A stretch of DNA of 64,000 bases from Candidatus Dormiibacterota bacterium. GTDB lineage: Bacteria; Chloroflexota; Dormibacteria; Dormibacterales; Dormibacteraceae. The DNA lies in the NCBI GenBank assembly GCA_955652705.1, contig CATPBK010000050.1:1-64000 (forward strand), read 5' to 3'. The translations under genes were made by a program, and so were the position numbers. The notes beneath the pieces were generated by a model. The model had not been told where the DNA came from and did not search any database. It saw nothing but the letters and a program-made list of their open reading frames with translations. This document shows, piece after piece, positions 26,519 to 31,839 of this stretch; position 1 is the stretch's first letter; the number at the start of each line of letters is the position of its first letter.

Positions 26519-29032
26519 ATGGTGCGCCGGCTCCGGTGCCTCTTCGTGCTGCCCCTGGTGATGCTGCTCGCGCCTGCCCAGGCGGGGGCCAGCCCCTCGC
26601 CGTTTGCCTTCGAGCCGGCCATGGAATCCGCGGCGACAGTGCGCCAGGTGCCGCTCCCACTGATCCAGGCGATCGCTTATGTCAACACCCGCTGGGAGGT
26701 CATCGGCAAGCCCTCGGTCGACGGCGGCGTGGGCCCTTTCAACCTCCGCCCGGCCTGGCTTGACGAAGCCGCGCGCTGGAGCGGTCGCCAGCGCGTTGAG
26801 ATCGTCTACGACCCGGCGGCCAACCTCGACGGTGGGGCCGCGCTGCTCGCTCACCTGAACCCCGGCGGCGGCGAGCTCAAGGCCTGGTACCCGGCCGTTT
26901 CGCAGGTTGAAGGCGACTACGTGGCGGTCGAGGTCTTCGACACTCTCCGCAGCGGGGCGACCAGGACCACCAGCTCGGGCGAGACGATCTCGCTAGCTGT
27001 TCAGCCTCTGCCGGCTCAGGTCGCGGCACCGGCCCCGCACAGCTCCAATCCGATGAGCGCCGACTATGGCCCCGCCGCCTGGGTCCCCGCCAGCCCGTCC
27101 AACTACACGGTGGCCGACCGGCCCCGCGATTACCCGGTGGACCTGATCGTGATCCACGACATCGAGGGCAGCTACGGCAGCGCCATCCAGCATTTCCAGG
27201 ACCCGAACGCCCAGGGTTCGGCCCACTACGTGACCTCCGACGCCGGCCAGCTCACGCAGATGGTGGCCGAGCACGACATCGCCTGGCACGCCGGCAACTG
27301 GGACTACAACACGCGCGCCATCGGGATCGAGCACGAGGGCTACGCCTGGTCCTGCTGCTGGTACACGCCGGCGATGTACCAGACCAGCGCCCACCTCATT
27401 GCCTCCATCTGCTCGCGCTGGGGCGTGCCGATGGACCGCCAGCACGTGATCGGCCATAACGAAGTCCCCGACCCAAACAATCCGGGCCAATTCGGCGGCG
27501 CCGGCCACCACACTGACCCGGGCCCGTACTGGGACTGGAACTACTACATGAGCCTGGCGCAGAACTACGCCGCGGCCCTGCCCAGCCCGCCCCACATGGT
27601 GCTCGACGTCGCCGCCGTCGGACGTGACGCGAGCGCCAACCTGACCTGGTCCGCCGCGCGCTCCTGCCACGCCCCGATCACCGGTTACAGCGTGCTGGTG
27701 AGTCCCGGCAATACAGTCTTCAACTTCCCCGCCGGCACCACTTCAGCCACCGTCCAGGGCCTGACCAACGGCACCACCTACACGTTTACGGTCACCGCTA
27801 CGAATTCGGACGGGCAGTCGAGCCTCACCTCCAACCCTGTCATCCCGGGACCGGTCACCCACCGCTCATTCTTCAACTGGTATGACAGCGCCAGTCCCGG
27901 GATGTGGAACGACAACATCCACATCGTCAACCCGGGGCCGACCGCCGCCAGCGGGTACCTCTCCATGCCGGGTCAGCCCGACCTTCCCTTCTCAATCGGG
28001 CCGGGATCGGGTGACCACTTCAGCTGGGGCGGTGGGGTGATCGGAGGTCCGGTCTCGGTGAACCTCCAGGTCGGCCCGGCGGTCATCGCGAGCCAGCGCG
28101 TCCAGTACTTCGACACGTTCAACGAGGTTCTGGCCAAGCAGGCCGGCGAGGCTGCCACCGTCTCCTACTTCAACTGGTACGACAGGGCCAGCCCCGGGAT
28201 GTCGGCTGACAACATCCACATCTTGAACCCGGGCTCCGCGGCAGCGACAGGGAGCATCTCCATGCCCGGGGCGAGCCCGATCGCCTTCTCCGTGGCTGCG
28301 GGTGGCGAGGGCTACTACGCGTGGCCTGCGGGTGTGATCGGTGGGCCCGTGACCGTCACCGCGTCCAGCCCCGTCTTGGCAAGCCAGCGGGTGCTCTTCT
28401 ACCAGAGCTTCAACGAGGTTCCGGCCAAGACCTCCGCAGACGCTGCCGCCCAGCTCTACTTCAACTGGTTCGACAAGGCCAGCCCCGGGATGTCGGTCGA
28501 CAACGTTCATATCCTCAACCCCGGAGGTGTCCCGGCCACCGGAACGATCACGCTCGCCACTGCGGCGCAGGTCTCCTTCTCGGTGCCCGCTGGCGGCGAA
28601 AATTACTACTCCTGGCCGGCCGGGACGATCGGGGGTCCGGTTCAGGTCCGCTCCTCGACCCCGGTCATCGCCAGCCAGCGGGTGCTCTACGGCCAGACGT
28701 TCAACGAAGTGATCGGGCGGAGCCCGGCCAGCGCGAGCCTCGTCTCCTACTTCAGCTGGTACGACAAGGCCAACCCGGGAATGCTGGTCGACAACATCCA
28801 CCTCGTGAACCCGGGCTCAGACACTTCGACGGGCACGCTCACGCTGCCGAGCCAGCCGGCCATCACCTTCTCGATCCCGGCCGGCGGTGAGCGCTACTAC
28901 TCCTGGCCTCAGGGCGTGATCGGCGGACCGGTCACGGTCACTGTCACCACCGGACCGCCGGTGATCGCCAGCCAGCGCGTCGCCTACTGGCAGAGCTTCA
29001 ACGAGGTGATGGGGGCGCCGGCGCCCACTTAG
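26519..29032 (+). CDS. Secreted N-acetylmuramoyl-L-alanine amidase with Fn3 and four ~97-residue repeats
   Basis: An 837-residue exported protein: signal peptide about 1-25 (Ala-x-Ala end), a lytic-transglycosylase-like N-terminal region (about 30-125), an Amidase_2/PGRP domain (about 200-345) with zinc-ligand His in LIVIHD and in GHHTDPG and the active-site stretch HYVTSDAGQLTQMV, then a fibronectin-III domain (about 355-445). From about 450 to the end come four repeats. The amidase should cut the MurNAc-L-Ala bond of peptidoglycan; the repeats may bind wall or exopolymer. The start is preceded by a TTGACA promoter. It ends tail to tail with the hydrolase gene, sharing TTAG. Confidence 0.85.
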   Translation: MVRRLRCLFVLPLVMLLAPAQAGASPSPFAFEPAMESAATVRQVPLPLIQAIAYVNTRWEVIGKPSVDGGVGPFNLRPAWLDEAARWSGRQRVEIVYDPAANLDGGAALLAHLNPGGGELKAWYPAVSQVEGDYVAVEVFDTLRSGATRTTSSGETISLAVQPLPAQVAAPAPHSSNPMSADYGPAAWVPASPSNYTVADRPRDYPVDLIVIHDIEGSYGSAIQHFQDPNAQGSAHYVTSDAGQLTQMVAEHDIAWHAGNWDYNTRAIGIEHEGYAWSCCWYTPAMYQTSAHLIASICSRWGVPMDRQHVIGHNEVPDPNNPGQFGGAGHHTDPGPYWDWNYYMSLAQNYAAALPSPPHMVLDVAAVGRDASANLTWSAARSCHAPITGYSVLVSPGNTVFNFPAGTTSATVQGLTNGTTYTFTVTATNSDGQSSLTSNPVIPGPVTHRSFFNWYDSASPGMWNDNIHIVNPGPTAASGYLSMPGQPDLPFSIGPGSGDHFSWGGGVIGGPVSVNLQVGPAVIASQRVQYFDTFNEVLAKQAGEAATVSYFNWYDRASPGMSADNIHILNPGSAAATGSISMPGASPIAFSVAAGGEGYYAWPAGVIGGPVTVTASSPVLASQRVLFYQSFNEVPAKTSADAAAQLYFNWFDKASPGMSVDNVHILNPGGVPATGTITLATAAQVSFSVPAGGENYYSWPAGTIGGPVQVRSSTPVIASQRVLYGQTFNEVIGRSPASASLVSYFSWYDKANPGMLVDNIHLVNPGSDTSTGTLTLPSQPAITFSIPAGGERYYSWPQGVIGGPVTVTVTTGPPVIASQRVAYWQSFNEVMGAPAPT
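27866..29020 (+). repeat. Four tandem ~97-residue protein repeats in the amidase
   Basis: Copies begin at about residues 450, 549, 646 and 742. Each reads roughly F-N-W-Y-D-x-A-S-P-G-M-x-x-D-N-I-H-I-x-N-P-G, then a G-x-x-x-Y-x-W-P-x-G-x-I-G-G-P-V core, and ends in SQRVxxxxxFNEV. Copy 1 is most diverged (SGDHFSWGGG instead of GGExYYxWPAG). I do not recognise the domain with certainty. Confidence 0.8.
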
Positions 29033-30178
29033 ACGGAGGTCGCCGGGATGCCGGCGTGGGCGGCCAGCCAATCCGCGATCCTCTGGAACGCGCCGACCGC
29101 CAGCTTGTCCGCTTTCGCCTCGTCTGGGAAGAGTCCGCTCGGGTTCTCGAAGAAACCGTGGTCGACGCCCGGCATCACCTCGACGTCCCATTGGGGCCGC
29201 TCGTAGCTCCGCAGGATCTCGGCGTTGACCCTGGTCGGCACCTGGCGGTCGAGGGCGCCGTTCAGCCACAGCGCGGGCTGCGTCATGGCGGCGAGCGCCC
29301 GCCGGGGATCGTATTGCGAATGGTCGGCGCGGACCGCGGCCTGCATCTCGGATTCGGGAGTGCTGGGAAGGCTGATTGACCCGTTGCTGTAGGAGGCCCA
29401 GACCACTTGCTGCCCGACCGTCACCGCCGGCGCCGAGGCGAGTACGGCGAACGCGGCCGCGGGGAAGCGCTGGATGGCCAGCGGTACGGTCCAGCCGCCC
29501 TGGCTGCCGCCGTGGAAGCCGACGCGCCTCGGGTCGACGCCCGGCCAGGCGGCCAGGAAGCCGGCGACCGCGGCGGCGTCGTCGGCGTAAACGGCCAGGC
29601 TGGCGTCGCTCGGCCATTCGCCCGGGTACGTGCCCGTGGAGGCGCCGTTACCACGCTTGTCGTAAGCCAGGACGGTGAGCCCTAGGCTGGCGTAGAGGCC
29701 GACCCAGATCCCGTAGTCGATCCCCGGGTGTCAGCGGCTCGGTCACGGTGCCGGCCAGCGTGGCGTCCTTGGCCGCTACCTTCACCTCGGTCTCCCGGAA
29801 GGCCAGCCGGGTGCCCTTCAGCGGCGGGCGGCCCTTGAACGTCTCGGTCAGCGTGGCCGCCCGGTCGCCCGCGACTTCGAACGCGACGGCTGCCTGCTTA
29901 GGCGTCGGCAGCTGGAATCCGAAGCCGAAGGTGAAGTTGTCGATCGGCGCCGCTGGATAGAGCTGGCGGATCGAGCTGTCGCGCAGGTTGACGATGTAGC
30001 CGTGACCGTTGAAGACGATCGTCGAGCCGTCCTCGATCCGGTAAGCCCCCACGTAGGCGGCGGAATCTCGCGGTTGAGGTGTGGGCGCGGGCGGGCTCGG
30101 CCTGGTGGGCGGCGACCCCGTGGTGCAGGCGGTCATAACGAGGATCACGGCTGCCCAGCCCGGCGCCCTCCGGCCCAC
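29029..30178 (-). pseudogene. Alpha/beta-hydrolase lipoprotein, disrupted by deletion and frameshift
   Basis: The 5' part (30178 to about 29725) encodes a lipoprotein signal (LVMTAC, Cys at about 18) and a beta-rich N-terminal domain ending AGTVTEPLTPG. The 3' part, in another frame, carries a complete hydrolase core: LAYDKRGNG, nucleophile GGSQGG, Asp in GALDRQVP and His in GVDHGFF. Between them the family's PxxxxxHGSG oxyanion-hole strand is missing, so a deletion plus a frame change at about 29720-29730 is inferred, not a simple base slip. The GTG start follows TATCTT-N7. It lies under a predicted MarR operator. It is probably inactive unless re-annotated as two products. Confidence 0.7.
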
Positions 30179-30185
30179 GGCCGCG

Positions 30186-30233
30186 AAGATACCACGAGTT
30201 CGTGCTATCTGCCACGGATCCGTGCTTTATCCT
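30186..30233. promoter_or_regulatory. Divergent leaderless promoters with a paired-palindrome MarR operator
   Basis: Minus strand: TATCTT at 30191-30186, 7 nt before the hydrolase GTG. Plus strand: TATCCT at 30228-30233, 7 nt before the marR GTG at 30241. Between the two -10 boxes lie ACGAGTTCGT (30194-30203; ACGA/TCGT arms) and the perfect palindrome ACGGATCCGT (30214-30223), both followed by GCT, with centres 20 bp apart. Each palindrome sits 2-4 bp upstream of one -10, a placement suited to repression of both genes. Confidence 0.65.
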
Positions 30234-30240
30234 GGGCAAC

Positions 30241-30723
30241 GTGGACCAGCCCGGGCGCCGCATCTCGCTCCTCTTCGACCTCTTCGTGCTGAACCAGCAC
30301 ACGCGCCGGCTGCTCGGCGCCGCGCTCGCCGAGACCGAGCTACGAGCCGATGAGTACGCGGTCTACAGCCTCCTCTTCGAGCAGGGACCGCTGACCGCGA
30401 CCGAGATGGGGCGCCGGCTGGGCACGCCGCTCACCACGCTGCTCGACTACCTGCACTCGATGGAGGCGCGCGGGCACCTGCGGCGCGAGCCGCATCCTCG
30501 GGACGGCCGCGCCCGCCGGCTTTCGCTGACGCTGGCCGGGGCGACCGCGCAGCGGCAGACGAACGAGGCCTGGGAGGTGATGCGAATCCGGCTCGAGGCC
30601 GCCCTTCGGGTACCCCAGGCTACGATCCGGGAGGCGCTCCAGGCCCTGGATGACGCGGTGCTGAAGTCTCTCGAGGAGGCGGAGGAACAGTCCGAGTCGG
30701 GAGGCTCACCGCGCGGAGCTTGA
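30241..30723 (+). CDS. MarR-family transcriptional regulator
   Basis: A 160-residue winged-helix repressor: dimerisation helix LLFDLFVLNQHTRRLL at about 10-25, helix-turn-helix with LTATEMGRRLGTPLTTLLDYLHSM, and the wing basic hairpin EPHPRDGRARRLSLT (the D-x-R of MarR proteins). It probably represses itself and the divergent hydrolase through the paired palindromes. The ligand is unknown. The GTG at 30241 is preferred to an upstream TTG or ATG-like codon because TATCCT ends exactly 7 nt before it. Its 3' end overlaps the convergent ferredoxin gene by about 100 bp. Confidence 0.85.
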   Translation: MDQPGRRISLLFDLFVLNQHTRRLLGAALAETELRADEYAVYSLLFEQGPLTATEMGRRLGTPLTTLLDYLHSMEARGHLRREPHPRDGRARRLSLTLAGATAQRQTNEAWEVMRIRLEAALRVPQATIREALQALDDAVLKSLEEAEEQSESGGSPRGA

Positions 30724-30907
30724 GGGCGAGCACGGGGCAAGCCGCGACGGCTCGCTTAGCATGGTCCAGCTGGTGGGCAGGGAGGGCCCCAGCCGTGATG
30801 ATCGGGTAGCCCCAGTCATCGAGCTGGATCCGCTCCGGGAAGAGCTCCGCGCAGAGCCGGTGCCCGTCGCACTTGGTGCGATCGATCCAGATCTCCTGCT
30901 CTTCCAT
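30620..30907 (-). CDS. Single-cluster ferredoxin with CxxHxxC motif
   Basis: A 95-residue protein whose first ~65 residues are a typical small ferredoxin: DRTKCDGHRLC (Cys at about 13 and 19 with His replacing the central Cys) and AACPVLALK carrying the third Cys. The CxxHxxC...CP type is known from actinobacteria, where it serves cytochrome P450s and other partners and holds a 3Fe-4S or 4Fe-4S cluster. The last ~30 residues are Pro/Arg-rich and read antisense through marR, so they are probably non-functional read-through with no stop until 30620. The ATG lies 2 nt after the apbE stop, so they form an operon. Confidence 0.8.
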   Translation of the reverse strand: MEEQEIWIDRTKCDGHRLCAELFPERIQLDDWGYPIITAGALPAHQLDHAKRAVAACPVLALKLRAVSLPTRTVPPPPRETSAPRHPGPGAPPGS

Positions 30908-30909
30908 CC

Positions 30910-31839
30910 TCAGGCCGTCCTCAAGGCGTCCGCGGGCCAGCCGCCGAGCCTCACGATCGACCCTTCCCGATCGACCAGGCGGGCGGGCAGGCGGGCCGCT
31001 CGGAGTCGGGCAACCGCGCCGTCACCCCGCACGATCGCCTCGGTCGAGGCTGTGTTGGCGGCGACGCAGCTGTGCGCGGCGACGGTCACGGTCCGCCAGC
31101 GGCCGCCGGCCGGGAGGCCACTGGCCGGGTCGATGATGTGGTGCAGCTCGAGTTCGCCCCGGCGCCAGCGACGCACGGTGGTGCTGGAGGTCGCCAGGCC
31201 GCCAGCCATGATCGTGACGACCTCCTCGCCATCGACGATGGGGGCGCCACTGTCCTCGCTGACCTGGATCTGCCAGCCGCCGGGCGGCGCCTGGCCGCTG
31301 ACCGCGATGTCACCGCCCAGGCTGACCAGAACGCCGGCGCTTCCGGCCGCCAGCGCCGCGCCGGCCGCCAGGTCGGCTGCCAGCGCTTTGGCGGTCGCGC
31401 CGAGGTCGACCTCGACTCCCCGGGGCACCCGGACCAGACGGCGCTGAGGGTCGAAGCGCAAGCTCTGCCAGCCCGGGACGCGGCTGGGCTGGAGCCGGAT
31501 CGGCTGGCCGGTGGGGGGCACCAGGTCGAAGTCGCGGTCGTAGCCCAGCAGCCTGACCGCGCTTCCGACGGTGGGGTCGACAGCGCCGTCCGTCCGGCGG
31601 GCGGCGTCCAGCGCAACTCCGAGTGCCAGCGCCAGGAGCGGGCCCAGGTGGTGCTCCGTCTCCGGTGCGGCGTTGACCAATGCGATCTCGCTGTCCGTCC
31701 GGAAACGGCTGCAGGCGGCATCGATGGCACGCAGGACCTCATCCACGGCTTGTGTAGCGGCGTCGAGCGCGAGGGGCCGGGTGACGGCGATGCGCAACCG
31801 GCAGCCAAGCGCGACGTCGTCGGCGATGCCGAGCTTCAC
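30910..31839 (-). CDS. apbE: FAD:protein FMN transferase (ApbE family)
   Basis: A 309-residue ApbE-like flavin transferase, which attaches FMN covalently to Thr/Ser of partner redox proteins. Family features: SRFRTDSEIALVN at about 44-56, GAVDPTVGSAVRLLGYD, VDLGATAKALAAD, SLGGDIAVSG and the C-terminal HHIIDPASGLPA with the Mg-binding region. It lacks a signal peptide, so the target would be cytosolic or on the inner face. GTG start overlaps the preceding stop (GTGA), and a ferredoxin gene follows after 2 nt. No FMN-acceptor protein such as NqrC/RnfG is seen in the window. Confidence 0.88.
   Translation of the reverse strand: MKLGIADDVALGCRLRIAVTRPLALDAATQAVDEVLRAIDAACSRFRTDSEIALVNAAPETEHHLGPLLALALGVALDAARRTDGAVDPTVGSAVRLLGYDRDFDLVPPTGQPIRLQPSRVPGWQSLRFDPQRRLVRVPRGVEVDLGATAKALAADLAAGAALAAGSAGVLVSLGGDIAVSGQAPPGGWQIQVSEDSGAPIVDGEEVVTIMAGGLATSSTTVRRWRRGELELHHIIDPASGLPAGGRWRTVTVAAHSCVAANTASTEAIVRGDGAVARLRAARLPARLVDREGSIVRLGGWPADALRTA

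Follow-up and report, generated by a model that had tools for sequence, protein, structure and literature searches.

Operators of MarR-family regulators are palindromes of about 16-20 bp that overlap promoter elements. In the EstR/EstC system of Agrobacterium tumefaciens, a MarR repressor is divergent from an alpha/beta-hydrolase esterase and represses both genes; its 14-bp sites are GTTATCGCGATAAC, with footprints from +16 to -18 and from -46 to -82 (PMC5201249). CouR of Rhodococcus jostii, also a MarR repressor, acts at divergent promoters 31 bp apart and is released by a ligand, not by oxidation (PMC4737184). CrtR of Corynebacterium glutamicum is a MarR-type autorepressor divergent from its target, and crtR has been reported to be leaderless (PMC5401885). 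For SCO3205 of Streptomyces coelicolor, two operators were predicted from orthologous intergenes and their binding was then verified (PMC3737563).

The locus described here lies in a window of 64,000 nucleotides (the whole stretch of DNA that was analysed) on contig C50 of a 2.79-Mb draft genome. With EstR/EstC, the closest known system, it shares the divergent arrangement of marR and an alpha/beta-hydrolase gene, with palindromic operators (candidates in our case) at both promoters, a likeness for which we claim no homology beyond the two superfamilies. Like the CouR locus it has divergent promoters in one short intergene, and like that of CrtR it has a divergent target and a marR-type gene that is, by prediction, leaderless. 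The likeness to SCO3205 lies in the two operators (here candidate ones) within one divergent intergene and in the comparative approach itself.

The divergent intergene and its two genes

The start codons of marR and of the hydrolase gene are 62 bp apart, and both boxes and both -10-like elements fall within this interval. The features are as follows.

29029 to 30178, minus strand: GTG-initiated gene for an esterase-like lipoprotein of the alpha/beta-hydrolase type; reading frame interrupted near 29728
30191 to 30186, minus strand: -10-like TATCTT for the hydrolase, ending 7 nt ahead of the GTG at 30178; TANNNT at the same offset from box 1 in six genomes
30193 to 30204, unstranded: box 1, CACGAGTTCGTG, 12 bp, imperfect palindrome, kept in six genomes
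30205 to 30212, unstranded: spacer CTATCTGC, 8 bp, which sets the 20-bp centre-to-centre distance; constant length in six genomes
30213 to 30224, unstranded: box 2, CACGGATCCGTG, 12 bp, perfect palindrome, kept in six genomes with one mismatch in G101
30228 to 30233, plus strand: -10-like TATCCT for marR, ending 7 nt ahead of the GTG at 30241; TANNNT shifts with the start codon
30241 to 30723, plus strand: marR, 160-aa MarR-family winged-helix protein, GTG start; identified by Pfam, PDB profile and predicted fold

Re-measurement of the sequence places the 10-bp cores, ACGAGTTCGT at 30194-30203 and ACGGATCCGT at 30214-30223, where the first-pass annotation had put them, each followed by GCT and with their centres 20 bp apart. 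The distances it gave, 2 bp from the hydrolase -10 to the first core and 4 bp from the marR -10 to the second, are likewise correct. It had called both cores palindromes, which is accurate for the second; the first is imperfect, as its central GT is not self-complementary. The 10-bp unit with its GCT is present in the window, but the conserved unit is larger, approximately CCACG-N4-CGTGG plus arms, and the trailing GCT is specific to the window copy, with GGTA or GGCA in the orthologues. The extended arms of box 1 read AGATAC...GCTATCT. Box 1 adjoins the -10 of the hydrolase gene and box 2 that of marR, and at a helical distance of 1.9 turns the two boxes would face almost the same side of the double helix.

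Assignment of the regulator to the MarR family draws on several comparisons. Pfam scores are 29.4 bits for MarR (cut-off 24.6) and 30.5 for MarR_2 (cut-off 27), with TrmB slightly higher at 32.2, and a PDB profile search returns MarR, PcaV and MexR on top. An AlphaFold model built from six orthologues (pLDDT 84.7) aligns with structures of the MarR family, among them DNA-bound MarR (5h3r) at TM 0.72/0.81. The protein has the winged helix-turn-helix, and the predicted model has the six-helix fold, in which terminal dimerisation helices flank this domain. An OhrR-type NCBIfam model scores 32, under its cut-off of 200. Peroxide sensors of the OhrR/EstR type have a redox-active N-terminal cysteine; since cysteine is absent from all six MarR orthologues, a thiol- or peroxide-sensing switch of this type is excluded. 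Going by the MarR family, the signal is likely to be a small-molecule ligand.

The hydrolase gene, intact in relatives, is damaged in the window. Relative to the G090 orthologue, about 47 bp are missing near 29728 and the frame is shifted; the missing part includes PHPGIVIVHGSGPG with the conserved HG loop, the likely oxyanion hole. The junction carries a CCGGG repeat, so either the bases are truly deleted or the assembly has collapsed there, and the frameshifted gene may be a pseudogene or an assembly error of the draft MAG. As a consequence of the frameshift, the switch in the source genome may drive a dead gene.

Other genes of the window surround the pair. An Amidase_2 + fn3 protein is encoded at 26519-29032 (plus strand); its C-terminal part contains tandem 'YFNWYDxASPGMxxDNIHIxNPG'-like modules in several copies, for which there is no Pfam match. 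A Fer4_15 ferredoxin gene (30620-30907, minus strand) adjoins an ApbE flavin-transferase gene (30910-31839, minus strand), and the ferredoxin gene, which converges on marR, shares about 100 bp with the marR 3' end.

Conservation of the double box and of the predicted promoters

We compared 110 genomes of the same class, in which the MarR orthologue was called by profile at E <= 1e-18. Six of the 110, spanning four genera and two families, carry the orthologue (a modest sample, related by descent), and the orthologous proteins are 48-70% identical to that of the window. The hydrolase gene is divergent from marR in all six, with draft G091 keeping only the hydrolase start before its contig ends. 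In five of these genomes the double box stands unaltered between marR and the hydrolase gene; the sixth, G101, departs from it by a single mismatch, AACG instead of CACG in one half-site, with the spacing unchanged. Among the 104 genomes without the orthologue the double box occurs in three, each time inside a long frame with coding-like third-position GC (5/6 versus 3/104, Fisher p = 3e-6, a value that does not correct for phylogeny). When the six intergenes are anchored on box 1 and compared ungapped, the 32-bp core has a mean identity of 82% between the group of the window, G090 and G091 and that of G002, G108 and G101. The flanks of the same two groups are 35% identical on the hydrolase side and 33% on the marR side, which is background. 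By this alignment, the intergene core is a clear phylogenetic footprint.

The signal resides in the pair of boxes and in their distance. A single CACGN4CGTG box is found 4 times in the window, against 2.7 expected from shuffles, and CACGN4CGTGC shows no genome-wide excess (33/29, against 34/32 for the control pattern); significance of the single box was thus rejected, its frequency being at chance level both in the window and in the whole genome. For the double box at 20 bp, base composition predicts about 0.005 occurrences per 2.8 Mb, and one is observed in the source genome. Across the class the exact double box is present in 8 of 110 genomes, and a reversed control pattern in none of the 110. 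A search that admits any spacer of 0 to 30 bp yields 29 places, of which 8 have the 8-bp spacer and at most 3 any other length, so that no other spacing in this range is enriched among the 110 genomes. The promoter elements differ in how they are tied to the boxes: on the hydrolase strand, exactly 1 bp separates TANNNT from the 12-bp box 1 in each of the six genomes, whereas the distance from the marR-side TANNNT to box 2 is 3, 3, 3, 9, 9 and 15 bp and moves with the start codon.

The first-pass annotation also had both genes starting at the first base of their mRNA. Both display the leaderless signature, for which the expected distance from TANNNT to the start is about 6-8 nt; each gene has 7 nt. 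A baseline drawn from 464 kb of the source genome, the window included, with 304 genes predicted by a simple frame-based gene caller that was not trained, shows a TANNNT peak 6-9 nt before 5'-proximal start codons with its maximum at 7, and no such peak at the control start codons deep in genes. By the TANNNT excess, leaderless starts appear to be a general feature of this genome and would account for about one gene in ten; a leaderless share of 4.0-5.7% is on record for the four Chloroflexi genomes where it was detected (PMC3160421). Because TANNNT most often stands 7 nt before the start in the source genome, leaderless starts are plausible for both the hydrolase gene and marR, and would be ordinary there. 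The exact gap, however, is not strictly kept in the orthologues: it ranges from 6 to 12 nt overall, with values as high as 9-12 nt for the hydrolase gene and a marR gap of 12 nt in G101, and some orthologues would therefore have leaders of a few bases. The intergene contains no consensus sigma-70 -35/-10 pair. An RNA element was considered and rejected, as Rfam gives no match and the inferred transcripts would begin downstream of the boxes.

More distant relatives of the regulator have a different neighbour. Those in G246 and G353, from another family of the phylum, adjoin genes for S41-peptidase-like lipoproteins, and no equivalent boxes were seen upstream of them. This neighbourhood is recorded at the loci L044 (a Thermomicrobiales MAG), L079 and L080. 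These associations suggest cell-surface hydrolases as the targets of regulation in the wider clade. At L044 (771-795) a TACCACGTGGTA palindrome overlaps a leaderless-type start, TATTAT-6-GTG; it may represent a variant way of using the same half-site.

Candidate operator and alternative readings

We consider the two boxes to be, very probably, the operator of the adjacent MarR-family protein, controlling both directions, because the double box, its spacing and the hydrolase -10 offset are conserved together with the gene pair. The earlier proposal of an operator that serves both promoters is thereby strongly supported in its conservation part, with the 20-bp double box and the hydrolase TANNNT offset recurring in six of six genomes, and stays a prediction in its binding part. 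That the boxes are chance palindromes of GC-rich DNA would agree with the chance frequency of single boxes; the retention of boxes and spacing in six genomes, which span two families and four genera, between flanks at background identity, leaves this reading with a negligible probability. It is also very improbable that the boxes serve another regulator while the neighbouring MarR protein acts elsewhere, for the double boxes track the MarR orthologue across the 110 genomes and, apart from the coding-frame matches, occur only beside it; divergent autoregulation is, moreover, the usual MarR arrangement (PMC5401885, PMC4737184, PMC5201249).

The remaining alternatives concern how the half-sites are used. 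The order CACG/CGTG/CACG/CGTG can pair as two boxes or around its centre, and a single dimer (or another register) could occupy the central inverted repeat CGTG...CACG, centred at 30208.5, as one core operator, with the outer half-sites as weaker or alternative contacts. The inner repeat is indeed nearly palindromic in the orthologues (GTGGCATTTGCCAC), 10-15 of 16 positions of the 32-bp core show symmetry, depending on which of the six genomes is taken, and the L044 relative has one such palindrome alone beside its start. We nevertheless find this register quite unlikely: the inner repeat of the window is the least symmetric of the six (10/16) while its 12-bp boxes are intact, and five of the six genomes retain every one of the four half-sites. 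Somewhat unlikely, by our estimate, is that the boxes act independently, one per promoter and with no cooperation. Each box does adjoin one -10, and EstR offers a precedent with two separate operators of slightly different affinities, one for each promoter (PMC5201249). Against independence stand the 20-bp spacing, exact in six of six genomes, and the 8-bp spacer as the only enriched one; this fixed distance suggests contact or phasing between two bound dimers.

In the two-box operator that we favor, two MarR dimers would sit side by side, 1.9 turns apart and on nearly one face of the DNA, and would cover the DNA between the two -10 elements. RNA polymerase would be excluded, and the hydrolase gene and marR would both be off. 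Release would probably come from a small-molecule ligand, which may be a substrate or a product of the surface-anchored esterase-like hydrolase; a ligand of this kind would make the pair a self-limiting inducible switch. Both mRNAs would probably begin at the start codon or within a few bases of it. Outside the intergene the six genomes have few matches to the single-box pattern CCACGRNTYCGTG, and each case examined lies inside a long open frame. A wider regulon was rejected, as no further intergenic site appeared among the single-box matches examined in the six genomes; from these matches the operator is probably a dedicated local one, with one target site per genome. We are more doubtful than convinced of a broader proposal: an undescribed MarR subfamily of uncultivated Chloroflexota in which a phase-locked two-dimer operator (approximately TACCACGRATCCGTGGTATTTRCCACGRATCCGTGGT) places two leaderless promoters under one repression complex that serves no target but one cell-surface esterase.

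Relation to known systems

The described regulators differ from the present case in several respects. EstR operators have another sequence and do not abut at 20 bp as the boxes do here, and EstR/EstC has conventional leaders with ribosome-binding sites, in contrast to the near-leaderless promoters predicted at this locus. EstR, an OhrR paralogue, senses organic hydroperoxide by oxidation, while the present protein is devoid of cysteine. In CouR one operator serves both directions, a single inverted repeat over both -35 boxes, and the target is catabolic (PMC4737184). CrtR recognizes short TTAA/AAATTT motifs, and its target, a carotenoid operon, has a 114-nt leader (PMC5401885). The SCO3205 sites follow the consensus TTnAAnnnTCAA, are non-adjacent within 119 nt, and have further counterparts elsewhere in the genome (PMC3737563).

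The layout is that of an ordinary self-regulating on/off switch of the EstR/EstC-like kind and not a new kind of system, and the general picture of MarR regulation is unchanged by it. The locus provides a testable and well-supported candidate operator for a regulator of an uncultivated lineage, and an example of how one 62-bp intergene could control two divergent genes whose leaders are predicted to be very short or absent. What distinguishes it from the known systems is the fixed 20-bp spacing, together with promoters that appear near-leaderless on both sides.
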